A stretch of 37,735 bases of DNA from a virus. Below the pieces are notes generated by a model. It ran no database searches and was not told the origin of the DNA. It saw only the letters and a list, made by a program, of their open reading frames with translations. Positions within the stretch are counted from its first letter, which is position 1; each line of letters starts with the position of its first letter. The stretch is from the IMG/VR virus record IMGVR_UViG_3300042566_001108, positions 1 to 37,735 of that record. One strand, written 5' to 3'. Shown here piece after piece: positions 2,410 to 37,735 of this stretch. The position numbers and the translations under genes are program-made.

Positions 2410-3012
2410 ATGAAAAAATTATTAGTAAAAATTAAAGTCATAGATATTCCTTATTCACCAGCAGTTGAGGCTATTTCTCAAAAGTGGACTAAGGAAGAAC
2501 TAGAAGTATTTGAGCAACCAATGATTGAGGTTGACGGGGTTCTAGTAAATGATGAGTCATATACTTACCACCCAGAGATCCCTGCAATTCCTGAGCAGTT
2601 AGAAGTCTCTCATGAAGAAATTATTGCTCAGACTCAAGGTGAAGAAGCTGAATTACAAGTCTGGTTAGATGGTGATAAGCACAAATATCCTGAAGGTTAT
2701 TGGGTTGAATGGATAGACATTACAGAGGAAGTTAATAAGCAAAAAGCTATTGATGCTAAGATTGCTTTAGGTCAAAAAGCTAGACTTACATGTGATAAGG
2801 TTCTTGATCTTATCTCAGGCTATAACCTAGACAGAGAGTTATCTGTTGAACAAATCACATCAATGCAAACTGCATTTGCACCTATTGAGCTTGCTTTAAG
2901 GTCTGGTAGACCAAGCCTTGCTAAATACCATATTGCTAATGTTTCAGTTGATGGTGTTCTTGTATCTCAAGAAATGAAAGACCTAGCTCTTGAGTTATTA
3001 GCGGATTACTAA
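2410..3012 (+). CDS. Hypothetical protein downstream of tail fibre (possible fibre chaperone)
   Basis: A 200-residue acidic protein. The ATG at 2410 is chosen over an upstream in-frame ATG at 2383 because AGGA lies 9 bases before it and it follows the fibre stop at 2399. The first half is rich in Glu and Pro (PEIPAIPEQLEVSHEE) and has a WVEWIDIT phrase; the C-terminal part is predicted helical (ARLTCDKVLDLISGYN). I do not recognise a family. Position directly after a fibre gene is where many phages carry a fibre-assembly chaperone, so that is a positional guess only. It overlaps the next gene by one base (TAATG). Confidence 0.8.
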   Translation: MKKLLVKIKVIDIPYSPAVEAISQKWTKEELEVFEQPMIEVDGVLVNDESYTYHPEIPAIPEQLEVSHEEIIAQTQGEEAELQVWLDGDKHKYPEGYWVEWIDITEEVNKQKAIDAKIALGQKARLTCDKVLDLISGYNLDRELSVEQITSMQTAFAPIELALRSGRPSLAKYHIANVSVDGVLVSQEMKDLALELLADY

Positions 3013-7597: not shown

Positions 7598-7827
7598 TGG
7601 ATTTATCCTTAACGCTTGGGCTTCTTAAAGAGGGGCTCAAGCTATGGAACAATAAAGAAGCTACTAAATACATTGATAGGGTTATTAAATTAGAAAAGGC
7701 ATATCACGATGAAATGGCAAAACCACTTGATGATCGGTCTGATCTTCGCATTGACGATATCTTGCTCCAGCTTAGAGTCATCTCCCAGAGTTTCATCCAC
7801 TACCCTGGCAAAAACAGAAACGAGTGA
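7597..7827 (+). CDS. Lysis-cassette hypothetical protein overlapping a lipoprotein gene
   Basis: A 76-residue charged, mostly helical protein (KLWNNKEATKYIDRVIKLEK). It has no clear N-terminal membrane segment, so it does not look like a classic inner-membrane spanin. Its 3' half is overlapped in the +1 frame by the lipoprotein ORF starting at 7709, the arrangement typical of Rz/Rz1 pairs. Whether this protein is a spanin partner or a cytoplasmic protein is undecided. Confidence 0.65.
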   Translation: MDLSLTLGLLKEGLKLWNNKEATKYIDRVIKLEKAYHDEMAKPLDDRSDLRIDDILLQLRVISQSFIHYPGKNRNE

Positions 7828-8047
7828 GCTTGTACAAATAGCCCCTGAGATTCCATTTAATACCGACGAGGCATTTCTACCCTTAAGACAACGTCAAGAT
7901 GGGAAAATTTTACCCAGCTACCAATGGCGACAATGCGTAAAAAGATTCGTCGTTTGCGTTAAATGGGAAAAGAAAAGAGTCTATTTTGAAGACCTATCTT
8001 GGTTTTTATCTAACGGATTCGGATTAACTAAACAAAGAAAACCTTGA
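7709..8047 (+). CDS. Embedded lipoprotein, o-spanin (Rz1)-like
   Basis: A 112-residue protein in a different frame, beginning inside the preceding gene (119-base overlap). It has a short signal sequence with hydrophobic core and a candidate lipidation cysteine at position 19 (LIFALTISCSS). The lipobox is imperfect (Thr-Ile-Ser-Cys). The mature part is polar with two further Cys residues and ends in a basic tail. An outer-membrane lipoprotein encoded within the lysis cassette matches the Rz1 role in final outer-membrane disruption; this is inference from layout and signal peptide. Confidence 0.65.
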   Translation: MKWQNHLMIGLIFALTISCSSLESSPRVSSTTLAKTETSELVQIAPEIPFNTDEAFLPLRQRQDGKILPSYQWRQCVKRFVVCVKWEKKRVYFEDLSWFLSNGFGLTKQRKP

Positions 8048-10640: not shown

Positions 10641-11216
10641 TTAATTCCTTTTTGCTTCACCGATTAATCTTGATGCTTCATCTTTTGTGATATTTTCTTC
10701 GAACTTAATTCCCATCTTTCTAAGTGCGTTCTTTTGTGCATCACTAGCGGCACCTTGCAGTGGTCTTTGTTGACCGATACCATCTACTTGAAAAGTAGGT
10801 TTTACAATTTCTTTAACTGGTGCTTTTACTGATTGAGATTGAGGAATGGAAACTGAGTTTCCGTCATCATCCTCATCCGCAGTTGAAATTCCTAATAGTG
10901 CTTGTAATTGGTAACGCTTGTAATATGTAATAAGAGATCCCATTTTTTGGGGATCTTGTAATACTGGCATAATCATTTCAGAGGATAATTCTTCACCTGA
11001 TTCATGTAAAAGTTTAGTGACTAATAGTGTTGATGATTCATTCACCTTCATAGTTTGAACCACCGCCAAACCATTAAGAGCAAGCGGACTTCTAACTGCA
11101 TCTAAAATACCAGAAAGGGTCAGATAGTCTGATTTAAAAAATGGGTTCTGAGCGTCTTTTCTTATTGGTTTAAATTGTGAATGGAATTTTACGAGTGCTT
11201 GACTTAGATTTTTCAT
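10641..11216 (-). CDS. erf: ERF-family single-strand annealing protein
   Basis: A 191-residue protein. The N-terminal 120 residues carry ERF hallmarks: NPFFKSDYLTLSGILDAV, then GLAVVQT, a HESGEELSSEM segment and GSLITYYKRYQLQALLGIS followed by DEDDDGN. ERF proteins anneal complementary strands and promote phage recombination or circularisation. The C-terminal part is a linker and a small helical module (NALRKMGIKFEENITKDEA). AGAGG precedes the ATG by a normal distance. The start lies inside the end of the zinc-finger gene (47-base overlap). Confidence 0.9.
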   Translation of the reverse strand: MKNLSQALVKFHSQFKPIRKDAQNPFFKSDYLTLSGILDAVRSPLALNGLAVVQTMKVNESSTLLVTKLLHESGEELSSEMIMPVLQDPQKMGSLITYYKRYQLQALLGISTADEDDDGNSVSIPQSQSVKAPVKEIVKPTFQVDGIGQQRPLQGAASDAQKNALRKMGIKFEENITKDEASRLIGEAKRN

Positions 11217-13450: not shown

Positions 13451-14127
13451 ATATTTGTAAAATATGCAATAAAGAATTTAATCAAACAAAACAAAGAAAA
13501 ATTCTTTGTAGTTCTGAATGTAACGAACAAAATAAAAAATTAATTAAGAGAAATTATTATTTAAGGAATGTTGATTTGTGTAAAAAAAGATCAAAAGATA
13601 GAGTTTTAAATGGCTATAAATGGGCACCAACTAATGAACAAAAAGAAAAATATAAAGAAAAAAGAAAAAAATACTACAGAATTAACAAGCTTAATAATCC
13701 AGAAAAAATAAAAAAAATTTACGATAAGGCAAATAATACAGAGAAAAGAAAAAAATACATGAAAGAATATTCTAAAAATTCAGAACAAAAACAAAAGGAA
13801 AAAGAAAGGGTTGCAAAATACAGAGCAAAACCATCAACCAAAGAAGTAAGATATACTGATCATTACAAAAGAAAATACGGAATTACAGCACAAGATTACG
13901 ACATTATGTTAATGAGCCAAAATGGTTTTTGTAAAATATGCAAACAACCAGAGACAAAACTATTTAGAGGAAAATTGACAAGGTTAGCAGTGGATCATTG
14001 TCATAAAACAGGGAAAGTTAGAGGATTGCTTTGCTGGAGTTGTAACACGACATTAGGAAAAGTAAAAGATTCTATTGATTTGTTATTAAATATGGCAAAT
14101 TACTTAAAAGAAAGCATTCAGAATTAA
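13447..14127 (+). CDS. Endonuclease VII-like HNH nuclease
   Basis: A 226-residue protein. The C-terminal half matches recombination endonuclease VII: YKRKYGITAQDYDIMLMSQN, Cys162 and Cys165, AVDHCHKTGKVRGLLCWSCN (Asp183, His184, His186, Cys196, Cys199, Asn200) and a final helix. This His-Me fold cuts branched DNA or acts as a homing nuclease. The N-terminus has its own Cys cluster (CKIC, C21, C25) and the middle is a very Lys/Asn-rich helix. The coding sequence is unusually A-rich compared with neighbours, suggesting separate acquisition. Coupled to the preceding exonuclease gene (ATGA). Confidence 0.82.
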   Translation: MNICKICNKEFNQTKQRKILCSSECNEQNKKLIKRNYYLRNVDLCKKRSKDRVLNGYKWAPTNEQKEKYKEKRKKYYRINKLNNPEKIKKIYDKANNTEKRKKYMKEYSKNSEQKQKEKERVAKYRAKPSTKEVRYTDHYKRKYGITAQDYDIMLMSQNGFCKICKQPETKLFRGKLTRLAVDHCHKTGKVRGLLCWSCNTTLGKVKDSIDLLLNMANYLKESIQN

Positions 14128-14185
14128 GTGATTCGGTCGGGCAATATTCTGTTTAATATCTAGTCGTTCTTGATACGATTAAGGA

Positions 14186-14509
14186 ATGAAAAAACTACCT
14201 AAATCTGTGATGATTTTTGGCCGTAAGATTCCTGTTTTAACCTTATCCTCAGAAGAGATAAAAAAACTTTACCCTGATTTTACCCATGCTCCTCAAGGTC
14301 TTTGGGACTCTTGCCAAAGAACTATAATAATTAATAATGAGTTTCCAATACAAGACCAAGGCTACACCCTTAAGCATGAAATTGCTCATAGTGTTATGAC
14401 CTTTGTAGGCCTTGATTTAATTATTGATCCAAACGTGCAAGAGATAATTGTTCAAACTATGGCGACACTTCTAGAGGACGTTTTAAAGCAAGCGAATAGT
14501 CTAAAATGA
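14186..14509 (+). CDS. Putative zinc metallopeptidase-like protein (HExxH)
   Basis: A 107-residue protein with HEIAH at residues 64-68 inside a predicted helix (TLKHEIAHSVMTFVGL) and a later helix containing Glu86, an arrangement found in small phage proteins related to zincin or ImmA-like peptidases. AAGGA precedes the ATG. There is no signal peptide. It is not the same family as the metzincin-like protein at 8692. The substrate is unknown. Confidence 0.7.
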   Translation: MKKLPKSVMIFGRKIPVLTLSSEEIKKLYPDFTHAPQGLWDSCQRTIIINNEFPIQDQGYTLKHEIAHSVMTFVGLDLIIDPNVQEIIVQTMATLLEDVLKQANSLK

Positions 14510-14766
14510 GCGCAAGAGTTCTGTTTATAAACACAGGTTATCTTCCAACGCATGACGAATGGGTTAGGTTAGAAAATATTCAAAGAGAGATTTCTGGATG
14601 GCGCGCCGAGTTGTTTCGAGAGTGGGAATTAAAGCGATTTACACCAGGCGAAAGATACTTATCTAAACAGAGATTCCATCATGGAGTAAGAGATAACTGG
14701 AAGATTTATCAAGGGTTTAATATAAAAAATACAAACACCCTTTACTTGCCTAATAACCTAGCCTAA
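14506..14766 (+). CDS. Hypothetical protein
   Basis: An 86-residue protein overlapping the previous stop (ATGA). It is rich in Trp and Arg (EWVRLENIQREISGWRAELF), mixed helix, without membrane segment or recognised motif. The coupling suggests a shared role with the HExxH protein, but nothing else supports that. Confidence 0.65.
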   Translation: MSARVLFINTGYLPTHDEWVRLENIQREISGWRAELFREWELKRFTPGERYLSKQRFHHGVRDNWKIYQGFNIKNTNTLYLPNNLA

Positions 14767-14800
14767 GGTTTACCCTACATAAAAATAGTAGGGGTTTAAA

Positions 14801-15397
14801 ATGGTTTATATTGATTACGTCAAAAGAGCTAAAGAATTACTAACACAAATTGAATGTCATCAGGTTGAAATAGCTTATCTTGCCACAATCGTTTGCGAAA
14901 TAAAACATGGCGGAAGACAAACATCTAAAGAATACAATTTAACAAAGTTTGCTAAAGACATTGGAGTCAATCGCAAAACCCTTTCAGGGTGGGTTTTAGT
15001 TTATAAAAACATTATAAAAAAAATAGGAATACATTATAAAGAGGTAACAAAAGCTGACTGGGAAAAGGCTAGTTTAATTGACGATTACCTAAGGCAAGAG
15101 ATTCGAATCATGCAAACAATCGAAGGAAACAAAAGAAAAAAAGGCGCATACAAAGAACTCTCAGAAGACTATATAAAAGATATATATGGAAAAGCCTATT
15201 CAACTATTGAGTTGCAACAAAAAATAAATAATTGGAACAGATATGTAATCTTTATAAAAAACAACCTACAATCAAAAGAGTTAAATTTAGTTAGCGCATC
15301 GTCTTTGTTGTCCATAAAAGAAAACATGGATGCCGCATCGGATATCATACTAAGACATTTAACAATGGGGAAAAAAAATGATTCATCAATCAAATGA
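14801..15397 (+). CDS. HTH DNA-binding protein
   Basis: A 198-residue protein with AGGGG before the ATG. Residues about 44-70 (YNLTKFAKDIGVNRKTLSGW) form a helix-turn-helix; the remainder is long helices rich in Lys and Ile. It overlaps the XRE regulator gene downstream by 20 bases. It could be a regulator or replication initiator; no ATPase or helicase motifs are present. The family is not identified. Confidence 0.7.
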   Translation: MVYIDYVKRAKELLTQIECHQVEIAYLATIVCEIKHGGRQTSKEYNLTKFAKDIGVNRKTLSGWVLVYKNIIKKIGIHYKEVTKADWEKASLIDDYLRQEIRIMQTIEGNKRKKGAYKELSEDYIKDIYGKAYSTIELQQKINNWNRYVIFIKNNLQSKELNLVSASSLLSIKENMDAASDIILRHLTMGKKNDSSIK

Positions 15398-15677
15398 AGT
15401 GGCTAAACTTATGAGAGAGAAACGAAGGGAACTTAAAATGTCTCAAAGAGAATTATCTTCTAGAGTTGGATTTTCAACAAAGGAAGGTCAATTTATAAGT
15501 AACGTAGAGCGTCAGAAATGTCAGTTTCCTATTCGCTACATAAGTAAACTTGCAAATGCTCTTGAAGTTTCAGAACAAACCATCATAGAATTAATGGCTC
15601 AAGACTATAAGAACGCAATTATTAAAGAGGTATTAAATGCATCTGAATTATCTAATCAAGCAAATAATCAGCTATGA
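15378..15677 (+). CDS. XRE-type HTH regulator
   Basis: A 99-residue protein whose residues about 8-65 follow the Cro/CI-type fold: LMREKRRELKMSQRELSSRV, then EGQFISNVERQKC and YISKLANALEVSEQTI. It has no protease or dimerisation domain beyond a short C-terminal helix. It begins within the end of the upstream HTH gene. It probably regulates early or late transcription; the GTAC cluster at 12052 is a possible target, by inference. Confidence 0.82.
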   Translation: MIHQSNEVAKLMREKRRELKMSQRELSSRVGFSTKEGQFISNVERQKCQFPIRYISKLANALEVSEQTIIELMAQDYKNAIIKEVLNASELSNQANNQL

Positions 15678-15864
15678 ACATTCATTAGAAAATAAACTCG
15701 ACATGCTAACAGAAATAGCAATCATGACGAGCAATAATAAGGTATTAAAGGCAACTGAAGAGGTCAGACATGAGTTGGTACGTATCGAAAAGAATTCTAA
15801 AGACGGGTCAGACGATATTCGAAGTCACGAACACCCAGGTCACATTAGTAATTTTCAGTTATAG
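15637..15864 (+). CDS. Hypothetical small helical protein
   Basis: A 75-residue protein that begins 41 bases inside the regulator gene. AGAGGTATTAA immediately before its ATG strongly supports this start. The sequence is helical and acidic/basic mixed (HSLENKLDMLTEIAIM), ending in a His-rich polar tail. The function is unknown. Confidence 0.65.
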   Translation: MHLNYLIKQIISYEHSLENKLDMLTEIAIMTSNNKVLKATEEVRHELVRIEKNSKDGSDDIRSHEHPGHISNFQL

Positions 15865-15894
15865 AGAATTAATCAAATTTCTTGAGGCTAACCG

Positions 15895-16272
15895 ATGACA
15901 ATCAGAAAATCAATTTCACACCCAGAATTACTAGTTGGATCAAACGGCTCTATTTATCATGCTGACACTGGTCAAAGAATTAATCTTATTCAAGATCATG
16001 GAACTACTATGCGTGGTCATATGATTGCCTATAAACATCTTGGAAAGACCAAGCAGCTATCAGTTTTAAGGCTAGTCTTTGAAGCTCATATAAAGAAATC
16101 AAAGATACAATATAATGATTATGTGGAAGTCATTGATGGGAATGACTATAACCCTGATGCAAGTAACTTAACCACAGGGTCAAGGTATAGAAAACCGGCT
16201 AAGAAAACTAAGACCAACAAAGATGGCGAAGCTTACTCTACATGGATGGGTATTGATGAGGTATATTGCTAA
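15895..16272 (+). CDS. HNH/NUMOD-like DNA-binding protein lacking a clear catalytic centre
   Basis: A 125-residue protein with GAGG before the ATG. The segment SNGSIYHADTGQRINLIQDH, then KTKQLSVLRLVFEAHI and DYVEVIDGNDYNPDASNL follows the layout of NUMOD4/HNH proteins, where the last part would hold HxDgNxxNN. Here the catalytic His is replaced (VIDGNDYN), so nuclease activity is doubtful. It may be a degenerate homing endonuclease now used for DNA binding. This is inference from pattern similarity. Confidence 0.55.
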   Translation: MTIRKSISHPELLVGSNGSIYHADTGQRINLIQDHGTTMRGHMIAYKHLGKTKQLSVLRLVFEAHIKKSKIQYNDYVEVIDGNDYNPDASNLTTGSRYRKPAKKTKTNKDGEAYSTWMGIDEVYC

Positions 16273-16283
16273 AGGGGTATTAA

Positions 16284-16589
16284 ATGAACGATAAAGACAA
16301 AGAAGCATTTGAGAAGTGGGAGCTAGATTATTTTGGACAAAATGATAATTGCCCTCACTATATGTTACATATCAAAAATACATGGCAAGCCGCTTGTGAG
16401 TATAAGCAAAAAGATTATAAAACAATATTGGATGCTATGTATTTGATAAGCCAAAATTATAAAAACCTGGAAGCCAAAAATAAAAAGTTAAAAGATGCTC
16501 TTGAGAATTGTTTGATAATGAGTCCATTAGACCCATTTGAGAGAGGTGACATGATTAGAGAAGCACTAAAAGAAATACCAATTGAGTAA
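16284..16589 (+). CDS. Hypothetical protein
   Basis: A 101-residue protein with AGGGGTATTAA before its ATG. It starts with DKEAFEKWELDYFG and has WQAACEYKQKDY, a layout common in small phage proteins of unknown role; the second half is a helical or coiled segment (YKNLEAKNKKLKDALENC). No enzymatic motif is seen. Confidence 0.7.
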   Translation: MNDKDKEAFEKWELDYFGQNDNCPHYMLHIKNTWQAACEYKQKDYKTILDAMYLISQNYKNLEAKNKKLKDALENCLIMSPLDPFERGDMIREALKEIPIE

Positions 16590-16664
16590 CCGAAAGGTTT
16601 GGTTTAACAAAACTGCCGTGATTTTGTGTGTGTCCTCATTGCTCAATGTGGGGAATATTTAAAT

Positions 16665-16937
16665 ATGAAAAACTACAAATCAAATAAGCCATGTATTGCG
16701 TGTGGTGAGTCTAAAGATGGATTTGTCTGTTTTCATCACGTGAAGACTAGAAAATCAGGCGGAACAGATGAGGAACATAATCTAATGCCTTTATGCGCTT
16801 GGTGTCACACAACGATTCATAAGATTGGATTGGTTACGATGGCAAAAAAGCATGTCTCAATTCATAATTGGCTAGTAAAGAACGGTTGGGAGTTTCATAT
16901 GGGCAAATGGATACTTTTAAAGGAAAACAATGATTAA
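16665..16937 (+). CDS. HNH endonuclease-like protein
   Basis: A 90-residue protein with a compact HNH motif: CIAC near residues 10-13, FHHVKTRKSGGTDEEHNLMP (His24/His25, Asn39) and CAWCHTTIH (Cys44, Cys47, His48, His52). All metal and catalytic positions are present. I start it at ATG 16665 (GGGG 11 bases upstream) rather than at an upstream frame extension from 16626 that lacks a site. Its end overlaps the methyltransferase start by 8 bases, which could indicate a linked nuclease/methylase pair. Confidence 0.78.
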   Translation: MKNYKSNKPCIACGESKDGFVCFHHVKTRKSGGTDEEHNLMPLCAWCHTTIHKIGLVTMAKKHVSIHNWLVKNGWEFHMGKWILLKENND

Positions 16938-17685
16938 TTTGATGCATGGTGATTGCTTAGAGTTAATGAAATCAATATCAGACAAGTCTATTGACATGGT
17001 TTTGACTGACCCGCCATATGGGACAACGGCTTGTAAATGGGACGTTGTTATTCCGTTTGAATTAATGTGGGAACAAATCAGAAGGGCAACCAAACCAAAG
17101 GGCGCAATTTTATTGTTTGGAAGTGAGCCTTTCAGTTCACATTTAAGAATAAGTAATTTAAAAATGTTTAAGCATGATCTAGTGTGGGAAAAAGACAAGC
17201 CATCGGGTTTCTTAAACGCAAAAAAATATCACATGAAATATTATGAAATGATCCATCTTTTTTGTAATGGAGTTCCCCTATATAATCCACAATTCATTTC
17301 AGCAAAACCCATGAACACAGTTTATTATGGAGGTAATTCAAAAAGTGATAATTATGGAAATTATAAAAAGGTAGAAAATACAAGAAAAAATACAGATATC
17401 AGATACCCGAAAGACGTTTTAAAATTTAACACTGTTAATGGTCAATCAAAGGAAAAATTTCATCCAACTCAAAAACCTGTACCTCTTCTTGAATACTTAA
17501 TCAAAACATACACACTAGAAAATGAAACCGTCCTAGACTTTACCATGGGCAGCGGCTCAACTGGTGTGGCTTGCAAAAATCTTAATCGAAAATTTATTGG
17601 AATTGAAAAGGATGAAAAATACTTTGAGATTGCTAAAAATAGAATAGAAAGTCACAATTCACAGGGACTAGGTTCATCAGAATAA
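16930..17685 (+). CDS. DNA methyltransferase (DPPY type)
   Basis: A 251-residue AdoMet-dependent DNA methylase. The catalytic DPPY lies at residues 27-30, the phrase HPTQKP at 178-183, and the AdoMet-binding DFTMGSGSTG at 203-212, so the motif order (catalytic first, AdoMet site last) is that of beta-class adenine-N6 or cytosine-N4 methylases. The variable region between (about 95-175) would recognise the target. It probably protects phage DNA from host restriction or pairs with the HNH protein encoded just upstream. No standard restriction endonuclease gene is seen. Confidence 0.92.
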   Translation: MINLMHGDCLELMKSISDKSIDMVLTDPPYGTTACKWDVVIPFELMWEQIRRATKPKGAILLFGSEPFSSHLRISNLKMFKHDLVWEKDKPSGFLNAKKYHMKYYEMIHLFCNGVPLYNPQFISAKPMNTVYYGGNSKSDNYGNYKKVENTRKNTDIRYPKDVLKFNTVNGQSKEKFHPTQKPVPLLEYLIKTYTLENETVLDFTMGSGSTGVACKNLNRKFIGIEKDEKYFEIAKNRIESHNSQGLGSSE

Positions 17686-17897
17686 ATGATAATTGTCTCT
17701 GGTAGGTTGTCAGGCGTTCCAAGCTCCCAATGATATGACTCGGCTTCAGATCCTTCATAACTTTCAGAATAACTTGATTCTATACTGGAATTAGTATTTT
17801 CTTCTTTTATACTGTAATCCGAATAAATAGCTTGTAATAGATAATCATTAGGGTAGAAAACTGGCATTGATAGAATAAAAACTATAATATTCTTCAT
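17652..17897 (-). CDS. Possible small secreted or membrane-anchored acidic protein
   Basis: An 81-residue leftward ORF in a gap between rightward genes, overlapping the methylase end by 34 bases. It has an N-terminal hydrophobic start (MKNIIVFILSMPVF) and a Ser/Glu-rich tail (SSYSESYEGSEAESYHWE). No strong ribosome-binding site is visible, but the sequence ACCATGTAAA at 17924-17933 upstream repeats the -35 region of the main leftward promoter. A stand-alone gene of this type could be a moron-like insertion. It may not be expressed. Confidence 0.45.
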   Translation of the reverse strand: MKNIIVFILSMPVFYPNDYLLQAIYSDYSIKEENTNSSIESSYSESYEGSEAESYHWELGTPDNLPETIIIYSDEPSPCEL

Positions 17898-17999
17898 TTT
17901 TATAGGATAAACCCTATTGACGAACCATGTAAAGATTACTTAGTCTGAGAATAAGAGTCGGTGACTCGCAACCAGAATCCAGTGGATTGAGGTTTATTT

Positions 18000-18179
18000 A
18001 TGGAAGAAATTGGTGCAATTAACGCTATTCTTAGCGCAATCAAGACACGTGTTGACGGTTCAGTCAGCATCACAATCGAAGCAAACCCAAGCGAAATAGA
18101 AGTAATTAATAAGCTAATGCAGTCTTATTTGATTGATAAGCGAGTCTTTACTGTCGCATTTATTCGGGTGGATGAATGA
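18000..18179 (+). CDS. Small hypothetical protein upstream of terminase
   Basis: A 59-residue protein with GAGGTTTATTT before ATG 18000 and a stop overlapping the small terminase start (ATGA). It reads as a small alpha/beta fold (TRVDGSVSITIEANPSEIEV). The coupling and normal codon use support it. It is the first gene of the packaging and head block, about 100 bases after a TTGACG (17917) that could be a -35 box, although no good -10 follows. Confidence 0.7.
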   Translation: MEEIGAINAILSAIKTRVDGSVSITIEANPSEIEVINKLMQSYLIDKRVFTVAFIRVDE

Positions 18180-18610
18180 AAAAGCATCCAGGTGGAAGAC
18201 CTTCAGATTATGATCCTAGACATATAACTGAAATGTTAGAGTTCTTTCAAAATTGGGAACCATTTAGAGAAGTTGAAAAAGAAATTGCCTCAGGTGGGCG
18301 AAAAGTTGTGATTAAAGAACGCCTTGTAAACTATCCGCCAACACTAAACAAATATGCAATTAAGCTTGGAATAGACAGAACCACCCTTAAAAGATGGGCG
18401 GAAGAACACCCAGAGTTTTGCATCACATATAAAGCGTGTAAGACAATTCAGGAAGAATGGCTGTCAGACAGAGGAACGACTGGAGAGTATCACGCAGGGT
18501 TTACTCAATTAATGCTAACAAACCATTCAGATATTAAGCAAAAGATCACGCATGAAGTAGAATCTTCAAAGATTGAAATTAACATTGATAAGAAAGATAG
18601 TGATTTATGA
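18176..18610 (+). CDS. terS: Terminase small subunit
   Basis: A 144-residue protein: GGRPSDYDPRHITEMLEFF at the N-terminus, a helix-turn-helix in the middle (LNKYAIKLGIDRTTLKRWAE) and EEHPEF followed by a helical oligomerisation-like segment, typical of small terminase subunits that recognise the packaging site. It is followed by an inserted HNH gene and then the large subunit. Start and stop overlap neighbours by four bases each. Confidence 0.82.
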   Translation: MKKHPGGRPSDYDPRHITEMLEFFQNWEPFREVEKEIASGGRKVVIKERLVNYPPTLNKYAIKLGIDRTTLKRWAEEHPEFCITYKACKTIQEEWLSDRGTTGEYHAGFTQLMLTNHSDIKQKITHEVESSKIEINIDKKDSDL

Positions 18611-19107
18611 TTGAAACATGGAAAAGAATTAATGAAACAGACTATGAGGTTTCTAGTTTTGGTTTGGTAAGACATATAAAAAATGGAATTAAAAAAATAA
18701 ACATTCACAAAAATGGTTATGCATCAGTCTCTATTTGGTCAAAAGGAAAAGAAAAAAGGCTGTTGGTTCATAGATTGGTTGCAATGTCTTTTATTGGGGA
18801 TATTAAAGATTTGGAAGTAAATCATAAAGATTTTAATAAGCTTAATAACTCTGTTGATAACTTAGAAATTGTAACATCGGCTCAAAACATTAAACACGCA
18901 AAAGACGGTAAACGATTTAAGGGAAACAAATTGATTTCGGGAGAAAAAAACCCTTCAGCAAAACTAACAATTGAAGAAGTTTTGATAATTAGAAAAATGA
19001 AATCTAATGGCTCCAAATATGCTGAAATTCTTTCAAGGTTTAATATAAAAAAATCACAGCTTACAAATATAGTTTCTGGGAAATCATGGAAAAATGTTCC
19101 AGTTTAG
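18607..19107 (+). CDS. Homing-endonuclease-like HNH protein (NUMOD4 type) between terminase genes
   Basis: A 166-residue protein with a NUMOD4 start (WKRINETDYEVSSFGLVRH), a NUMOD/HNH core (LLVHRLVAMSFIG, then VNHKDFNKLNNSVDNLEIVT, giving the HKDxNxxNN signature) and a C-terminal helix-turn-helix (RKMKSNGSKYAEILSRFNI) for DNA targeting. These are free-standing homing nucleases. It overlaps the small terminase stop by four bases and the large terminase start by 14, so it sits between the subunits without breaking either. Its coding sequence is more A-rich than the flanking genes. Confidence 0.85.
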   Translation: MIETWKRINETDYEVSSFGLVRHIKNGIKKINIHKNGYASVSIWSKGKEKRLLVHRLVAMSFIGDIKDLEVNHKDFNKLNNSVDNLEIVTSAQNIKHAKDGKRFKGNKLISGEKNPSAKLTIEEVLIIRKMKSNGSKYAEILSRFNIKKSQLTNIVSGKSWKNVPV

Positions 19108-20359
19108 AAAAACTGATAAACAGGTAGAGGCAATAAACAAGTTATCTGGCAAAGCTAGACACATAATGCTTTATGGTGGATCTAGGTCGGGAAAAACGTT
19201 TATTTCAGTTTACGCAATCATTGTTAGAGCTTGCAAAATAAAATCTAGGCACGTTATTTTAAGGCTAAACTTTAACCACATTAAGACATCAATTTGGCTC
19301 GATACTCTTCCAAAGGTTTTAAAGATTGCATTTCCAAACTTACCAGTTGAATGGAACAAGTCAGACTATTACGTCACACTTCCAAATGGATCTGAAATAT
19401 GGGTTGCTGGATTGGATGACGAGAAAAGGGTAGAAAAGATTTTAGGTAAGGAGTATTCAACAATTTATTTTAATGAATGCTCTCAAATACCGCACAAATC
19501 AATTCAAATTGCTCTTACCAGGTTAGCTGAAAAAAATGACTTAAGAAAGAAAGCTTATTATGACGAAAATCCACCATCAAAAAAGCATTGGTCATATTGG
19601 TTGTTTATTAAAAAACTAGATCCTGTTGATAACGTACCGATAGAATCAGATAAATATGATTCACTTATAATGAACCCCAAAGATAATATTGAAAACATTG
19701 ATGAGGATTATATTTCTGAAGTTTTAGATAACTTATCGGAAACACAAAAGAAAAGATTTAGAGATGGCGAGTTTACCTCTGATGATGACGGGGTTGCATA
19801 CTATTCTTTTGATAGAGAAAAGCATGTTTGCGAGATACCTAAAAAGGCTCTTGTTGGTCAAAGACTTGTTGGCATGGACTTTAACGTACAGCCAATGACT
19901 GCCGTTGTGTGTCATTATTCCAACAAGATTTTTCATATATTTGACGAAGTGTTTTTAGAAAACTCCGATACTTTTAAGATTACCGATCATTTAATAAGAA
20001 ACGGTCATAAAGGGGCTAGTATTTTCCCAGACTCAACAGGAAAAAATAGAAAGACTTCAGGTAAGTCGGATCATCACATTTTACAGGAAGCAGGATTTAA
20101 TGTTCAATATACTAGAAACCCATTAGTAATTGATCGGGTTAATAATATAAACAGGCTTCTCATGGAAGGTAGAATTGTGATTTCTCCAAACTGTAAAAAG
20201 TTAATAAATGACCTTGAGAAAGTTAGCTGGAAAGATGGTCAGTTAGACCAAAAAACAGATAAGATGCTTACACATATTACGGACGCTTTAGGGTATTTGT
20301 GTTGGGCAATTGAACCACTTAAAGAAAAGCAGCCTGAATCTAAATTTACTCAACTATAG
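19094..20359 (+). CDS. terL: Terminase large subunit
   Basis: A 421-residue DNA-packaging motor. The Walker A motif GGSRSGKT is at residues 28-35, Walker B with the catalytic Glu (TIYFNECSQ) at 123-131, and the nuclease acidic residues are in VGMDFNVQ (Asp262), IFPDSTGK (Asp313) and ITDALGYL (Asp397). It translocates DNA into the prohead and cuts it. The start is within the end of the homing-type gene; the site before the ATG (TGGAAAA) is weak, so translation is probably coupled. Confidence 0.95.
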   Translation: MFQFRKTDKQVEAINKLSGKARHIMLYGGSRSGKTFISVYAIIVRACKIKSRHVILRLNFNHIKTSIWLDTLPKVLKIAFPNLPVEWNKSDYYVTLPNGSEIWVAGLDDEKRVEKILGKEYSTIYFNECSQIPHKSIQIALTRLAEKNDLRKKAYYDENPPSKKHWSYWLFIKKLDPVDNVPIESDKYDSLIMNPKDNIENIDEDYISEVLDNLSETQKKRFRDGEFTSDDDGVAYYSFDREKHVCEIPKKALVGQRLVGMDFNVQPMTAVVCHYSNKIFHIFDEVFLENSDTFKITDHLIRNGHKGASIFPDSTGKNRKTSGKSDHHILQEAGFNVQYTRNPLVIDRVNNINRLLMEGRIVISPNCKKLINDLEKVSWKDGQLDQKTDKMLTHITDALGYLCWAIEPLKEKQPESKFTQL

Positions 20360-20367
20360 GATTAAAT

Positions 20368-21711
20368 ATGCTTAAACAGAAAAGAAAACAGATTATCGAA
20401 TACATTAAAGCTCATCGTGAGTTTTTAAAACTTAACTCAGAAGCTTTAGATATTTACGAAGGTAATTTACTTCCTTACGTTGATAACATTTTAAGGTCTT
20501 CATTATCCGCCACTTATTACAATTCAATTAAAGATAGAGTGTTGCCTATTAATATCCTGCAAAGATTCATTGATAAGGTATCAACTACCTACTCGAAACC
20601 ACCAATTAGATCGGCAGAAGATGAAAGAACATCGGAGTTTGTTAGCTTCTATGAGAAAGCATTGAACATTAATAACTCTGGGAACATTGCTGATGTTTAC
20701 TCGCACCTATTTAAAGGGTTTGCATGGGAGCCGTACATTAATAAGAACGGAAAACCAGCATTAAGAGAGCTACCTTTTAACTCATTCCTAGTTATGTCTG
20801 ACTCTATGGTGAACCCAGAAGAAGAGACAGTCTTTATTAAGTTCATGGGTAAACAAACTAATGATGATGACTCAATGCTATTGTTTGTTTATACGGATGA
20901 AGAGTTCGATGCTTTTTATATGAACGGAACTGAAGCATCTCAGTACTTAGTAGAAAATCAAGGTGTGAATGTAATCGGAACAATCCCTTTTATTTACGGA
21001 AAGAGACAAAAAAATAGACTAATACCAGTGATTGATACCGACATGCTTGCGATCACTAAAGCTATTCCTTGCATGATTACAGACGGGGCAGGGGCCCAGC
21101 TTTACCAGTCATTCAGCATAATTTATGGTATTGATATTTCTGCTGAGAATTTAAAAATGTCACCAAATGCCCTTTGGTCTATTAAGTCAGATCGGGAGAG
21201 TGATAAGAATCCACAACTAGGAATATTACAACCAAGTGCTGACACCGATAAGATTCTTCAGTTTATTTCAACTACATTTGCTCTTTGGTTAGAGACTAAA
21301 GGTGTTCGTGTTGGTTCTGTTGGGACAACCGATGGGGCAAATTTGTCTAGCGGTATCTCTAAGATCATTGATGAAATGGACGTTTGGGAGCTTAAAAAGA
21401 AATCACAAGCTTGGTTTAAACAAGATGAAGAAGAACTTTGGAATGTTAAACTTCCTAAGATCCACAATTATTGGATTAAATCAGGTCAAGTTCAACCGTC
21501 ATTATTGCCGCCAATTATGCCCGATGAGTTAGAGGTTAGTGTTGACTTTGAAGCACCTAAACCAATGATCTCTAGATCAGAAGAAATTGCACAAATTAAG
21601 TCTGAACTAGAACTAGGAACAATGACAATTGAGCAAGCAATTAAGAAACTACACCCAGAAATGGATGATGCCATGATTGCCGAGACTGTTGGAAATAGAG
21701 CGTTATTATAA
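20368..21711 (+). CDS. Portal protein (SPP1 gp6-like)
   Basis: A 447-residue protein with AGGA before the ATG. It follows the large terminase and shows the usual portal pattern: an N-terminal helical region (YEGNLLPYVDNILRSSLS), LQRFIDKVSTTYSKPPIR, a central crown/wing region and a C-terminal helical part ending with a Glu-rich tail. Size and position fit the dodecameric portal that docks the terminase and forms the DNA channel. It overlaps the next gene by one base. Confidence 0.87.
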   Translation: MLKQKRKQIIEYIKAHREFLKLNSEALDIYEGNLLPYVDNILRSSLSATYYNSIKDRVLPINILQRFIDKVSTTYSKPPIRSAEDERTSEFVSFYEKALNINNSGNIADVYSHLFKGFAWEPYINKNGKPALRELPFNSFLVMSDSMVNPEEETVFIKFMGKQTNDDDSMLLFVYTDEEFDAFYMNGTEASQYLVENQGVNVIGTIPFIYGKRQKNRLIPVIDTDMLAITKAIPCMITDGAGAQLYQSFSIIYGIDISAENLKMSPNALWSIKSDRESDKNPQLGILQPSADTDKILQFISTTFALWLETKGVRVGSVGTTDGANLSSGISKIIDEMDVWELKKKSQAWFKQDEEELWNVKLPKIHNYWIKSGQVQPSLLPPIMPDELEVSVDFEAPKPMISRSEEIAQIKSELELGTMTIEQAIKKLHPEMDDAMIAETVGNRALL

Positions 21712-22226
21712 TGGCAAAGCTTTCTATCAAGATCCCATTTACTCAACCGATTAAGCCTAAAGAAAGGGTGAAGATTGCTGATGCGCTACTGACTCACATT
21801 GTTGGTAGAACGATGGCTGGACTTGATAGAGACAACAATAAATTTGCTAAATACACAAAGAAATATGCAGAAGAAAAAGGTGTTGGTGTCAGTGATGTTG
21901 ATCTTCTTTTATCTGGTGAAATGCTTTCGGAGCTACAAGTTTTAAAGGTAGACGCAAATGGTGTTGAGATTGGTTACAAAGGAAGTAAAGACCTTATTGG
22001 CAAAGTCGAAGGGAATATTTTAGGCACTTATGGACAACCAGAACCAATACCAGGAAAAGCACGTGACTTTCTCGGAATATTGCCAGACGACGTGGAAGTT
22101 ATCATTGATTCATATATTGACGAGGATCTTAAGGATCTTAGTGAGGAAGAGTTAGACGCAATTGCTAGGGATGCGGCGAGAGAAATATTAGGTGACATAC
22201 AATTCGATACGGAAATTGATGAGTAA
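21711..22226 (+). CDS. Head completion / tail completion-like protein
   Basis: A 171-residue protein beginning at the portal stop. The phrase SDVDLLLSGEMLSELQVLK, then a glycine-bearing strand region and ARDFLGILPDDVE resemble small phage proteins of the Mu gpG/tail-completion type. The C-terminus is acidic and helical. The connector role is inferred from pattern and context. Confidence 0.6.
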   Translation: MAKLSIKIPFTQPIKPKERVKIADALLTHIVGRTMAGLDRDNNKFAKYTKKYAEEKGVGVSDVDLLLSGEMLSELQVLKVDANGVEIGYKGSKDLIGKVEGNILGTYGQPEPIPGKARDFLGILPDDVEVIIDSYIDEDLKDLSEEELDAIARDAAREILGDIQFDTEIDE

Positions 22227-22707
22227 GAAACTAGAACAATTATCTAAACAACTTCAGGTGAAGATTAAACTAGCACAAGTAAAGGCAGCTAGGGAAATTG
22301 CCGCATTGATTCCAGAGTTGATTAAGTTAAGAACAAGAAGTGCTGGCGATGGTGTTGATGGCCCATTAAAAGCACTTGAACCATCAACAAAGAAATCTAG
22401 GGAAAGATACAAAGATAATCTTCATCCCGATACCTCACCAAACGAATCAAACTTGACAGCTACAGGACAATTACTGGATTCTATTAAAGGTAAGAACATA
22501 GGAACAAAAGTTATTATTGAACCATCTAAAGGTAAACGCAAAGGCGAGCTTTATGGTGGCAAATCAACGCTTTCTAACAGGGAAGTTTTGAAATATGTCG
22601 AGCTTAATGGGCGAAAGTTTCATGAGCTATCGAACGAAGAAAGAGAAGAGATTATTAAAATAGTTGAGCAAATAATTAAGGATGAGATTAGTAGTGTCAT
22701 AAAATAA
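22219..22707 (+). CDS. Structural protein (neck or head completion)
   Basis: A 162-residue basic protein. I start it at ATG 22219, within the end of the previous gene, because a start at 22192 lacks a site and would add nine atypical residues. It contains IKLRTRSAGDGVDGPLKAL and SPNESNLTATGQLLDSIKGK, a pattern seen in small proteins between portal and scaffold genes of siphoviruses. The exact role is unknown. Confidence 0.65.
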   Translation: MSKKLEQLSKQLQVKIKLAQVKAAREIAALIPELIKLRTRSAGDGVDGPLKALEPSTKKSRERYKDNLHPDTSPNESNLTATGQLLDSIKGKNIGTKVIIEPSKGKRKGELYGGKSTLSNREVLKYVELNGRKFHELSNEEREEIIKIVEQIIKDEISSVIK

Positions 22708-26380: not shown

Positions 26381-28129
26381 ATGGCAACAATTTATGTTAA
26401 GAAAGATGGTTCAGGAAACGCATTAACAATACAAGAGGGAATATTACTTGCTCAATCTGGCGATACTGTTGAGATTGAAGCTGGTCTTTTCGAGGAAAGT
26501 GTTGATCTTTATAAATCAGGAATTACTCTAAAGGGTGCAGGAAAAAACCTAACAGAAGTTCGTGGTGTTTTAGAGGTAAACATTTCTAAACCTTGTACTT
26601 TTTCATCAGGTTCAACTACTTTAAGCGTTCCAGGAGGAACAAGTGGTTGGTTGGTAGGAAGATTCCTTTCAGGTGTAGGGCTTCCAACTAATGCTAGAAT
26701 TGTTTCTGTTTCTAGCAACTCTGTTGTAATTTCTCACGCTACAACTGCAGCAAAGACAAACCAAAACATTATTATGTCTGCGGTTCCTTCTGCTATTGGT
26801 GTTCGTGGCGCAAATCACACGATCCAAGACATGAAGATCACTGCTGTTCAAGCATTAGAATCTCGTTGTCTTGCCGATAACGCAGCAATCTTTTTTAGAA
26901 ACACCGGTAACGGAGAAGTTCCGGCCACTGGTTACACTTTACAAGATTGTATTATCGTAGCGAGAGGTGAGTCGGCTATTATGACCGATGCTACTGCGGC
27001 AATTGGAAACGGAATTATCAGAAGAAATATTATTGAAGGACAAACATTTGTTGGTGCTGCTGCTGCTCAGGTTCCAGCATTTGGAACAATGACAAAAACC
27101 GGTACTGTTCTTTCAGCTAGAACTGTTCAGTTCGATGACCTAAGTGGTATTACTGCTCCACATGCAGGAAACACTCAAGGAAGTGAGATCACCCCTGGTT
27201 TAAGAGTGGCTTCCATTAGTGGAAATGTCGTCACTGTTACTGCTAACATTCCTGACGCTGTTGGAACTAGCCGATCATTCTCTTTTGCAAACGTACAATT
27301 TAACTATCCTAACGTAGCAAGACAGTTGATTGTTATTCAGGGTGTAAACACTGCAACTCAGTTTTTAGATAACACTGTTTCTGGTTCAACTGGAAGCGGT
27401 ATATGTTTCAACACTGTTGCAACAATTGACCCTATTGGTGCTACTGTCACAGGAAACTCTTTCAATACTGTTTCAGATCTAGGCTTTGTTGTAAGAGCAA
27501 GAGGATTAAATTCTGTTGTTCAAAACAACGTAAGCACAGGTACATCAACTGGTTACTACATTCTACCTAACTTTGCTGCTAACGTAGCCGTGACTGTTGG
27601 TACAATGGTTTTAAGCTCTGGAAGATTTTTCAATTGTATCCAAGCTCATACTTCAAACGCTTCATTTGCTCCAACTGTTGCAGGCGGTGCTCCTTACTGG
27701 TCTGAGATTACATTAGAGCAAGTAAACGCCTCTGGAGTTTATGGAACAGGCTTAATGGTTATCGGAACTAACACCAACATTGTTGAATACTTACTTAGTA
27801 AGTCTCAGGCAAACGCTGGTGACTTGGTAGAAATTTCATTTAGCAAATCAATGCTTAAACAAATTTCTTCAGTAGCAAATGACCCAGCGTTTTCAAACGA
27901 AGCAAACTGGAATTTAGTAGGTATTGTTTACAAGAAAGAGTCAAAAAGAATGACGTCAGCATTTAAGGGAGAGTTTGATGGTACTAATCAAATGAAACTT
28001 AAGTCTGGTCTTTCAGGTGAAGTTTTCCAACTCCACAAGTTCATTATCTCTAAAGCGGATAGAACTTTAAAAGTTGTAAAAAGATCCGAGATTACAAACG
28101 CTTCTAGTTTTGACATCACTTTAAAGTAA
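26381..28129 (+). CDS. Right-handed beta-helix protein (tailspike or head-fibre like)
   Basis: A 582-residue protein. The opening ATIYVKKDGSGNALTIQEGI with SGDTVEIEAGLFEESVDL and GITLKGAGKN is the pectate-lyase-type start of a parallel beta-helix. The repetitive strands continue to about residue 400 (GSGICFNTVATIDPIGATVT), followed by a C-terminal domain. Such folds bind or cleave polysaccharides; catalytic residues cannot be assigned. The location among head genes rather than tail genes is unusual. GGAG precedes the ATG. Confidence 0.78.
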   Translation: MATIYVKKDGSGNALTIQEGILLAQSGDTVEIEAGLFEESVDLYKSGITLKGAGKNLTEVRGVLEVNISKPCTFSSGSTTLSVPGGTSGWLVGRFLSGVGLPTNARIVSVSSNSVVISHATTAAKTNQNIIMSAVPSAIGVRGANHTIQDMKITAVQALESRCLADNAAIFFRNTGNGEVPATGYTLQDCIIVARGESAIMTDATAAIGNGIIRRNIIEGQTFVGAAAAQVPAFGTMTKTGTVLSARTVQFDDLSGITAPHAGNTQGSEITPGLRVASISGNVVTVTANIPDAVGTSRSFSFANVQFNYPNVARQLIVIQGVNTATQFLDNTVSGSTGSGICFNTVATIDPIGATVTGNSFNTVSDLGFVVRARGLNSVVQNNVSTGTSTGYYILPNFAANVAVTVGTMVLSSGRFFNCIQAHTSNASFAPTVAGGAPYWSEITLEQVNASGVYGTGLMVIGTNTNIVEYLLSKSQANAGDLVEISFSKSMLKQISSVANDPAFSNEANWNLVGIVYKKESKRMTSAFKGEFDGTNQMKLKSGLSGEVFQLHKFIISKADRTLKVVKRSEITNASSFDITLK

Positions 28130-34739: not shown

Positions 34740-35155
34740 GAATAATCACTTTTGCCGATGGGTTCGTTTCTACTAGCCCGCCAGATATTGAGGGAAGAGA
34801 TCAAGAAAGTTTCAATCTTCTTAATAACCAGACAAATACAACTTTATTCACAATTGATTCAGCACAATATAAGTCAGCTTTTATTGATTTTGAGCTTACA
34901 AGATCCGATGTGTCGAATAGCTATGTTCAAACTGGTTCTATTACACTTTTTTACAATGGAACTAACTGGATATTCACATTCGGGCTAACTCAAAACGATG
35001 AAATGATAGCTGAGGCACTTGATAACGCCTATAATGTTGTCTTTTCGTTTACAAACGCCCTTGGTGTTGGCACTCTAAAATACAGCAGCGGAAACATGGG
35101 CGCTTCCTATAGCGGAAAATTTAAGATTTTAATCACAAGGATTAAGGTAGTATGA
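34736..35155 (+). CDS. Tail-tip associated protein
   Basis: A 139-residue beta-rich protein (YVQTGSITLFYNGTNWIFTF) coupled on both sides by ATGA overlaps, immediately before the fibre gene. It is probably a fibre adaptor or tip component. The family is not recognised. Confidence 0.65.
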   Translation: MRIITFADGFVSTSPPDIEGRDQESFNLLNNQTNTTLFTIDSAQYKSAFIDFELTRSDVSNSYVQTGSITLFYNGTNWIFTFGLTQNDEMIAEALDNAYNVVFSFTNALGVGTLKYSSGNMGASYSGKFKILITRIKVV

Positions 35156-37735
35156 ATTTGAAAACATTTATTTTTGTATTCTTTTCGTTTGTTTTACTTG
35201 CCACGTTAGCGACTGGCCAAACAAACCCATATAACAAGCTAGATAAATTAAAAGTTAACGATCTAATTGCTCAAAAACTTGAGGTACAATCAACTACAAA
35301 GGGAGCGATTCCTTGTCCGTCAATGACTCAAACTCAAAGAAACGCAATCCCTACTCCATTGGAAGCGTCTTGTGTTTTTAACCAAGATTCAAACAGCCTA
35401 AATGTTTACGATGGTTCAGGATGGGTTGAGGTTGGTGCTGGCGGAGCTGGCGGTGGTGGGATTAATAATTGGGAAACTGCTTATTTCTATGACATTGGCG
35501 ATGTTGTTATTGAGTCTAATAAGATTTATCAGTGTAACACCGCTCACACTTCATCAGTATTTGCGACTGACATAGCTAAATGGACAAAACTAGTTGCCCC
35601 TATTTCTTTAACAACTGAAGTCACCGGTGTTTTACCAATGGCGAATGGCGGTAGTGAGAAAGCATTAACACCAGTTCTTGGTGGGGTTGTTTATACTGAC
35701 GGTGGCTCAATGGAAGTTCTTGGCGCTGGAACAAGCGGTCAACTTCTTAAATCAAACGGTGCTGCAGCCCCTGAATGGACTACATTATCAGTTGATGACG
35801 CTACATTTTCAGGTGTTCTATCACTTGGTAAAGGTGGAACAAATAAAAGTTTAACAGCATCAAATGGTGCAATTGCCTATTCTGATGCCGATTCAATTGA
35901 ATTACTTGCACCTGGAACTGCTGGTCAAATCCTCCAGTCTAACGGTGTCGCTGCTCCTAGCTTTGTAAATAAATCTATTTCTGCAAAAGCTGAAAATGCT
36001 TCAAGTGTTACACTTGAAGAAATTCAGGTTTCTAATAATCAATTAACTCAGACTGATTCAAATAAACAAAAGATTGAAACTGGAAACAAAAACATTTTAG
36101 TAAACCCATCTTTTGAGCACTCAACATTCTCAACAGGGTGGACAAGTGGAGCGGGATCATTTTCACAAAATCTAACGGTTGAAATTGACGGTTTAAAAGC
36201 TGCTGAAGTTACTCTTTCTGCTCAGGCATTAGCAGTAACTCAAGACTCTATACTTTACGCTGCTCAATTCGCTGATGGTGTTCAAGGTTTAGCATCTGTT
36301 CGAGTTAAAACATCACTGAGTGGAATTAGAGTTTGTTCTCGTCAAGCTGGTGTCACATCGACAACCAATTGCGTGAATGTTCAAGGCAATGAAAAGTGGG
36401 GACTTTATAAGGTTCCTATGATTCTTGGAGCTACTTCTAACGGTATCTCAATTCATTCAAACGGAACTTCTTTAACTGGCACTGTTTATTTAGACGATGC
36501 CTTCGTAGGTGCGGTTGATTTGCAGGCTACTGTTGACGCTTCAAGAGTTGCTGGAGAAGCTTATTTTGCCGGAACTGCATCGTGTGTTTGGACAAGAACA
36601 TCAACAACTGTTGGAGCATTTACAACATCGGCAACGTGTCCAGGCCCAACAATTGTTACGTCTACAATGGGCTCATGGCAAACAACAGACTCAGATTTAC
36701 CAAGAGTCACAATTAACAATCTACCTGCTGGAACATACAAAGCTAAGTTTATAGTAAGACAGTTTATGGGAACAGCAATAACAAGCAATCCTGTTTTAGC
36801 TATAAATGATGGTTCAACAACTTGTGAGCCAATTGCCGTTAATGAATCAGTTACTGCGGCGGTTGGTCAGATTGTTGAATGTACTTTTATTTATAATCAA
36901 TCAGGTAACAGAGTTTTTGAGTTGTATGGAGCATCTCCACTCAATGCTGTTACAGTAGCAAACTTAGCTACCGCACCAAGAGCATCAACAAAATTCATAC
37001 TTGAATACTTCGGCTCATCTTCAGTCTATTCAACTCCAAACATAACAAACGCAGATAGGATTGGGGAAATAGTTCAAACCACAAACGCAGTAGCTCCAAA
37101 TGGTTTTATCTCAGCAATGAATAAATCAATTGGTCAAACAGGGTCAGGGGCTACTTTTACAGGTAACTCTTATTATGCTCTTTATGAACATATTTGGGGT
37201 CTAGATGGATTAACCACTACGGCTGGAAATGTTTATCGTATCTCAAGTGCAAAGGGTGCAAGTGCTAGTGCAGATTTTGCAGCTAATAAAATTATCACTA
37301 TCGACTACGAAACAAATGCACCTTTTATTCGTGGTAAAGCAAGTGCTGCAAGCATTGGGGCTTATACTGACTCAGACAACAAGCAACATAATCATATTCA
37401 AGCTCATAACGTGGGAGGCAACCCTGTAGAAACTCCACAATACGGATTTTCAGGAATTCCAAATTCAGTCGGAGGTGCTGGCTGGAAAGATGCAATGACT
37501 AACGCAGCTCCAATTGGGACACTTCCAAATACTTCCAGTTCTGGTGGAACAGAATCAAAACCTAAAAACGTTTCACTCTTTATGTATATCCGATATACAG
37601 GCGATTCAAACCTGATCATAGGTCAATTTTCGGGGTTAGAATCATGCTTAACCACTTTGGACTGCACTGATACTTTCTCGGCTAAAATTTCTGCAACTGG
37701 TGTAACCTCTGAAGAGAACGTCGATTTCTTGTCAG
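35152..37735 (+). CDS. Tail fibre, version B (3' end beyond window), with signal-peptide-like N-terminus
   Basis: The frame from ATG 35152 (ATGA overlap with the previous stop) stays open to the window end, 861 codons. It begins with a typical Sec signal, KTFIFVFFSFVLLATLATGQ, with a possible cleavage after Ala-Thr-Gly and no lipobox, which is odd for a virion protein. Then come a Gly-rich linker (VGAGGAGGGG), a short domain (NWETAYFYDIGDVVIES), and repeats of GTSGQLLKSNGAAAPEW type. After the shared region the version-specific module ends in HNHIQAHN and ESKPKNVSLFMYIRY, a phrase like the end of tail-collar fibres. It rejoins version A in frame at 37609; through 1671-2399 it would be about 1061 residues. 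Confidence 0.82.
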   Translation, partial: MNLKTFIFVFFSFVLLATLATGQTNPYNKLDKLKVNDLIAQKLEVQSTTKGAIPCPSMTQTQRNAIPTPLEASCVFNQDSNSLNVYDGSGWVEVGAGGAGGGGINNWETAYFYDIGDVVIESNKIYQCNTAHTSSVFATDIAKWTKLVAPISLTTEVTGVLPMANGGSEKALTPVLGGVVYTDGGSMEVLGAGTSGQLLKSNGAAAPEWTTLSVDDATFSGVLSLGKGGTNKSLTASNGAIAYSDADSIELLAPGTAGQILQSNGVAAPSFVNKSISAKAENASSVTLEEIQVSNNQLTQTDSNKQKIETGNKNILVNPSFEHSTFSTGWTSGAGSFSQNLTVEIDGLKAAEVTLSAQALAVTQDSILYAAQFADGVQGLASVRVKTSLSGIRVCSRQAGVTSTTNCVNVQGNEKWGLYKVPMILGATSNGISIHSNGTSLTGTVYLDDAFVGAVDLQATVDASRVAGEAYFAGTASCVWTRTSTTVGAFTTSATCPGPTIVTSTMGSWQTTDSDLPRVTINNLPAGTYKAKFIVRQFMGTAITSNPVLAINDGSTTCEPIAVNESVTAAVGQIVECTFIYNQSGNRVFELYGASPLNAVTVANLATAPRASTKFILEYFGSSSVYSTPNITNADRIGEIVQTTNAVAPNGFISAMNKSIGQTGSGATFTGNSYYALYEHIWGLDGLTTTAGNVYRISSAKGASASADFAANKIITIDYETNAPFIRGKASAASIGAYTDSDNKQHNHIQAHNVGGNPVETPQYGFSGIPNSVGGAGWKDAMTNAAPIGTLPNTSSSGGTESKPKNVSLFMYIRYTGDSNLIIGQFSGLESCLTTLDCTDTFSAKISATGVTSEENVDFLS
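35759..36512 (+). repeat. Fibre N-terminal region repeated at 1-754
   Basis: Ungapped counterpart of 1-754. It starts at the left window edge's equivalent and ends where the two fibre modules diverge. The substitution pattern is mainly third-codon-position, indicating selection for the same protein sequence. Confidence 0.9.
37609..37735 (+). repeat. 127-bp terminal repeat identical to 1671-1797
   Basis: The final 127 bases are identical to 1671-1797 and in the same reading frame. If this is an assembler overlap, the path continues at 1798 and the genome closes at 35,938 bp (1798 to 37735). Confidence 0.92.

Follow-up and report, generated by a model that had tools for sequence, protein, structure and literature searches.

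The window analysed here comprises the whole of the IMG/VR virus record IMGVR_UViG_3300042566_001108 (37,735 bp), and since the record is complete both window edges are contig ends. Homologues of terminase, major head protein, tail tube, tape measure, Erf annealing protein, exonuclease and methyltransferase are encoded, and judged by this gene content the window represents the genome of a small tailed phage. An ORF at 35152-37735 on the plus strand (version B), which belongs to the tail gene cluster and overlaps the upstream gene at 35152, and a second plus-strand ORF at 3-2399 (version A) are two versions of one fibre gene.

On their 5' side the two versions share 754 bp (35759-36512 in B, 1-754 in A), which align without a gap at 91.8% identity. 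Of the 62 mismatches 50 fall on third codon positions, and in translation 9 of 250 residues are changed, corresponding to 96.4% protein identity. A chance match between the versions is excluded by the BLAST E-values of 0 and 7e-63. The centres, 916 bp in version A (755-1670) and 1096 bp in version B (36513-37608), have no alignable DNA in common. Behind them, positions 37609-37735 repeat positions 1671-1797 exactly over 127 bp, and the record stops at 37735. Both joins are in frame: continued through the repeat, version B encodes 1061 residues, and version A placed behind 35152-35758 encodes 1001 residues, the latter protein being a homology-based splice and not a sequence seen joined. The alignment confirms the two-version structure put forward in the preliminary description, including the reading frame kept by the spliced version A.

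Version B opens with a predicted signal peptide (MNLKTFIFVFFSFVLLATLATG, 35152-35217), which displays a hydrophobic N-terminus, modeled by AF2 as a helix of residues 2-20, and a signal-peptidase-like site. The following N-terminal region (35218-35758) is found only before version B and contains a CBM_5_12-like motif at about residues 106-136 (Pfam PF02839, E 3e-5, below the curated cut-off). The shared 5' flank harbours shaft repeats and a domain at about residues 310-456, which models as a CBM4/16/22-like jelly roll (Z up to 12.4, rmsd 2.5, 130 aligned residues); the fold search places the same jelly-roll type in phage tailspikes, e.g. CBA120 TSP4 and K2-2 TSP. The centre of version B consists of modules B1 (36513-37059) and B2 (37060-37608), that of version A of modules A1 (755-1193, with homologues at the related loci L041, L084, L134 and L048/L050) and A2 (1194-1670, with homologues in L039, L041-L043, L087, L122, L126, L135 and others). 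The shared C-terminal modules C1 and C2 (1671-2399) complete the protein, and a partner gene follows on the same strand (2410-3012).

The AF2 models reach mean pLDDT values of 53 and 59. For B1, the only significant profile hit was PDB 8OKW (E 8.9e-5), and the fold search matched its model to 8okw_B (Z 13.4, rmsd 2.7, 131 aligned of 152). B1 is predicted to be a TNF-like lectin-type domain, matching the tip of Bdellovibrio Bd2734. No match was obtained for B2 in Pfam and IMG/VR searches, and fold searches with B2, A1, A2 and the C modules returned no named fold, the models being weak or one domain filling the list. An S74 domain (PF13884) was absent from the profile search.

Among cultured phages and plasmids, version A has no relative and version B yields only weak shaft-repeat matches in six records. 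In IMG/VR, relatives exist for B1, while a pattern scan with the whole ORF of version B and with B2 found none. The search for a host recovered a single relative-bearing contig, L120 (8.2 kb), in a Chitinophagaceae MAG; the other 394 genomes drawn from the phylum of this MAG contain no fibre relative. Glutamine occupies position +1 in 13 of 35 signal peptides, the proportion typical of Bacteroidetes being 48% or more (PMC5837995).

A de Bruijn assembly joins two branches at the first k-mer common to both. The metaSPAdes command used at JGI (-k 33,55,77,99,127) has 127 as its largest k (PMC11584781). The 3' repeat is exact over just this length, follows immediately upon the last mismatch (bases 37608 and 1670 differ) and lies at a contig end; for these reasons it is an assembly-graph branch vertex, whose length was set by the assembler. 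Exact 127-bp overlaps are also found between the contig ends of two relatives (G006 and G010), and in a third (G020) 127 exact bp at the end lie within a 450-bp end overlap of 97% identity. The perfect identity of the 3' flank had previously been taken as a sign of recent exchange on that side. This argument has to be abandoned, since a vertex is necessarily identical where the paths join. Even so, the 3' side comprises at least 127 identical bp, as against an average of 9.6 mismatches per 127 bp (minimum 3) in the 5' flank, the extent of identity beyond them not being given by the repeat, and versions A and B both run into the same downstream sequence. The contig thus is an example of an assembler k-mer posing as evidence of recent exchange. 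In a separate case, that of IMGVR_UViG_3300042476_000424 (G007; loci L080 and L081), the contig breaks inside B1 and its ends overlap by 251 bp at 99.6% identity.

A circle of 35,938 bp is formed when the record closes through version B. In L039 the genes that flank the two window ends are contiguous, in the order 34736-fibre-2383, with a single fibre gene between them. Each relative searched carries one fibre locus, which in two distant cases consists of two adjacent ORFs. The versions had been attributed either to co-existing strains or to two loci in one genome; the single locus of the relatives argues for the former, and judged by the contig structure version A is most simply a side branch from a co-existing strain.

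Mapping of nine segments of versions A and B onto the fibre ORFs of relatives (n = 37) revealed a beads-on-a-string architecture, composed of an N-region, the CBM, at least one β-rich module, C1 and C2. Directly after the CBM lies B1 in 10 fibres, a C1-type module in 8, A1 in 2, A2 in 1 and another module in 6. The 5' border of the two centres is a module border that recurs in relatives, and their 3' border lies before C1, a module that comes after A2 in many relatives. The fibre of L039 reads CBM, B1, A2, C1, C2 and is a natural recombinant of the two versions; its N-terminal region, like those of L122, L124 and L149, is homologous to that of version B. Sharp borders, conserved flanks, the recurrence of both borders and the B1-A2 hybrid of L039 all support an exchange of binding cassettes, as originally proposed. 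At L048 and L050, adjacent fibre ORFs with signal peptides show an altered module order, with C1 before A1.

Modular receptor-binding proteins are well known in phages (PMC10684548; PMC3909814). As in the mosaic receptor-binding proteins and metaviromic islands described there, where co-existing strains differ in fibre or C1q-like binding modules and domains are shuffled within fibres while the flanks are conserved, alternative modules here occupy one locus in close relatives, with conserved sequence on both sides. For the two-module structure the best reading is variation among strains in a modular binding protein, a variation of known kind (PMC3909814, PMC10684548).

As for the route, homologous exchange between related phages at module borders is, we infer, the likeliest, because an Erf homologue is present and the backbone has a sharp edge relative to L003. 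The Erf-like ssDNA annealing protein (10641-11216, minus strand; phrog_2324, E 1e-42) is a plausible driver of such exchange. L003 is 99.94% identical to the window over 14124-22640 (8.5 kb) and at most 89% identical, or without similarity, beyond it, which marks a sharp and recent recombination edge in the backbone, a mosaic edge outside the fibre gene.

The designation "tail fibre" had been taken as given in the preliminary description. It is called into question by the N-terminus and the cysteines of the protein, which point to possible export. Signal peptides were scored with a heuristic rule of our own and not with SignalP, complete fibre ORFs and other ORFs being drawn from the same loci. 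Sec-signal-like N-termini are present in 25 of 25 complete fibre ORFs and in 12 of 181 other ORFs (Fisher p 2e-23), and they precede unrelated sequences of the VAPYG, QQTIDK and QVSSV types. The cysteine content of the fibres is about fourfold that of other long ORFs (2.27% versus 0.59%, p 7e-14). Both p-values overstate the evidence, as relatives share ancestry and are not independent samples. Moreover, cysteines change in pairs: of one pair in C1 both members are present in 30 segments, both absent in 9 and one alone in none, with a further C1 pair invariant in 39 segments. The corresponding counts are 15, 2 and 0 for a pair in A2, and 8, 3 and 0 for one in B1. Because these cysteines are gained or lost together, disulphides are indicated, which in turn would point to an oxidising compartment. 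Export signals combined with disulphide-type cysteine pairs are unusual for a phage tail fibre, and neither is described for the mosaic binding proteins in the accessible parts of PMC3909814 and PMC10684548. The fibre gene is read as encoding a putative phage-borne, exported modular adhesin, the odds of export being somewhat better than even.

The best explanation, to which we assign a probability of about 0.6, is that of co-existing strains with one fibre locus and module recombination, the gene product being a Sec-exported, periplasm-folded and glycan-binding modular protein. The sample would have contained at least two strains of a small tailed phage differing in the middle of the fibre gene. 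On assembly, the graph would have joined the versions at the first shared 127-mer, resulting in a contig that starts inside version A and ends with version B. The alternative centres would have arisen when related phages recombined at the borders of modules. The protein would most likely be exported by Sec and fold in the periplasm; it may bind cell-surface glycans, in which case module exchange would alter what is bound. A more specific proposal, held at a little under even odds, is that a widespread environmental phage fibre family is Sec-exported and disulphide-bonded in the periplasm; the infected cell would then expose the fibre as an adhesin like those with which predatory bacteria recognise prey, or the fibre would join the tail only at lysis. 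The A and B alleles would in either case diversify a secreted adhesin and not a tail fibre built in the cytoplasm. Fibre mosaicism itself is ordinary; what specialists should look at is the predicted export and the disulphide-rich nature of the family, and if the fibres truly are exported a whole class of environmental "tail fibre" genes would need reassignment.

The closest competitor is a tail fibre of the ordinary kind, built into the virion, whose receptor binding varies between strains; its hydrophobic N-terminus would serve as a tail attachment element and not as a signal peptide. Modular receptor-binding proteins being familiar from phages, such a fibre would fit the position within the tail cluster and the overlap with the upstream gene. 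It would also fit the partner gene, a small gene without signal peptide that lies directly 3' of the fibre in most relatives and whose members in two relatives match the tail fibre assembly family phrog_4912. Partner and location together favour a virion fibre, and the combination of Sec export with a cytoplasmic partner is unusual; the N-terminus may have another role, or an exported fibre may meet the virion late or serve the infected cell. However, Sec-like N-termini occur in all complete relatives, even before unrelated sequence, and they speak against this reading, as do the covarying cysteine pairs and the fourfold cysteine content. In the two proteins of cultured or named phages that were checked, both weakly similar to the shaft, an N-terminus of this kind is absent. 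On balance, a plain virion fibre is regarded as rather unlikely.

The temperate phage lambda encodes Lom, a small barrel in the outer membrane. Lom is a surface protein with a signal peptide and its gene lies in a phage tail region, features that the present protein would share. In contrast to Lom, the present protein is a long modular fibre, and its genome has no detected integrase.

Bd2734, whose tip is matched by B1, is a MAT fibre; MATs are secreted trimeric adhesins of Bdellovibrio bacteriovorus proposed for prey recognition (PMC10769870). The present fibre shares with them a signal peptide (by the heuristic rule), a β-rich fibre of about 1,000 residues and interchangeable adhesive domains, among them the homologous TNF-like domain (PDB 8OKW). 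It differs in being encoded in a phage tail cluster, without an S74 domain, and in the placement of the TNF-like module, which is internal here, followed by B2 and C1-C2, whereas it is terminal in Bd2734. The conserved β-rich N-terminal domain of MATs, about 130 residues after the signal peptide, has no PDB homologue (PMC10769870). Due to the resemblance of B1 and the signal peptide the fibre is broadly MAT-like, but with its TNF-like module in an internal position it is not classed as a MAT. A MAT relative carried by the phage and exposed on the surface of a predatory bacterium, infected or lysogenic, whose binding would change with module exchange, would account for the signal peptide and the homology to Bd2734. 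Yet the internal position of the module speaks against it, and among 19 records there is no tyrosine integrase and only one serine recombinase, which makes this reading improbable. The serine recombinase (PF00239) lies at contig positions 668-1093 of G031, the sole relative with one. Should export prove real, shared modules would allow a test of the link from phage fibres to MAT adhesins, which so far has been noted as a resemblance.

An assembly chimera, in which version A stems from an unrelated phage and was falsely joined, could explain why no upstream junction is supported at the contig start, where version A lies: there is no k-mer overlap with 35632-35758, and the contig start matches no other stretch exactly over more than 11 bp. 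It is nevertheless very improbable, as version A runs in frame through 1671 into the shared C1-C2 modules, and the order A2-C1-C2 occurs naturally in L039, L041 and others. Two copies of the gene, or a programmed switch (DGR, invertase, shufflon) in one genome, would place both versions with their shared flanks on one contig but are hardly tenable, given that no reverse transcriptase (PF00078) was found in the 19 records, with control genomes positive, no resolvase or integrase (PF00239, PF00589) in this genome (G000) and no inverted repeats at the module borders, that whole modules differ between A and B, and that there is one fibre locus per record and the circle closes through version B alone.

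Three further observations concern other parts of the window and one relative. An ORF at 7709-8047 has a lipoprotein-like N-terminus (LTISCSS), and in relatives its homologues lie a few kb 3' of the fibre; it may be a lysis (spanin) gene. Positions 26381-28129, upstream of the tail genes, encode a protein of 582 residues with a CBM_5_12-like motif, the second in the window (E 0.001, below the cut-off). Finally, IMGVR_UViG_3300044608_001003 (G014; loci L085 and L086) has a terminase gene at each contig end, the two differing and sharing 26% and 57% identity, respectively, with the terminase of the window. The flanks at its ends are homologous (639 bp at 96% and 386 bp at 92% identity), and this may be a second example of a locus whose alternative versions lie at the ends of a contig.
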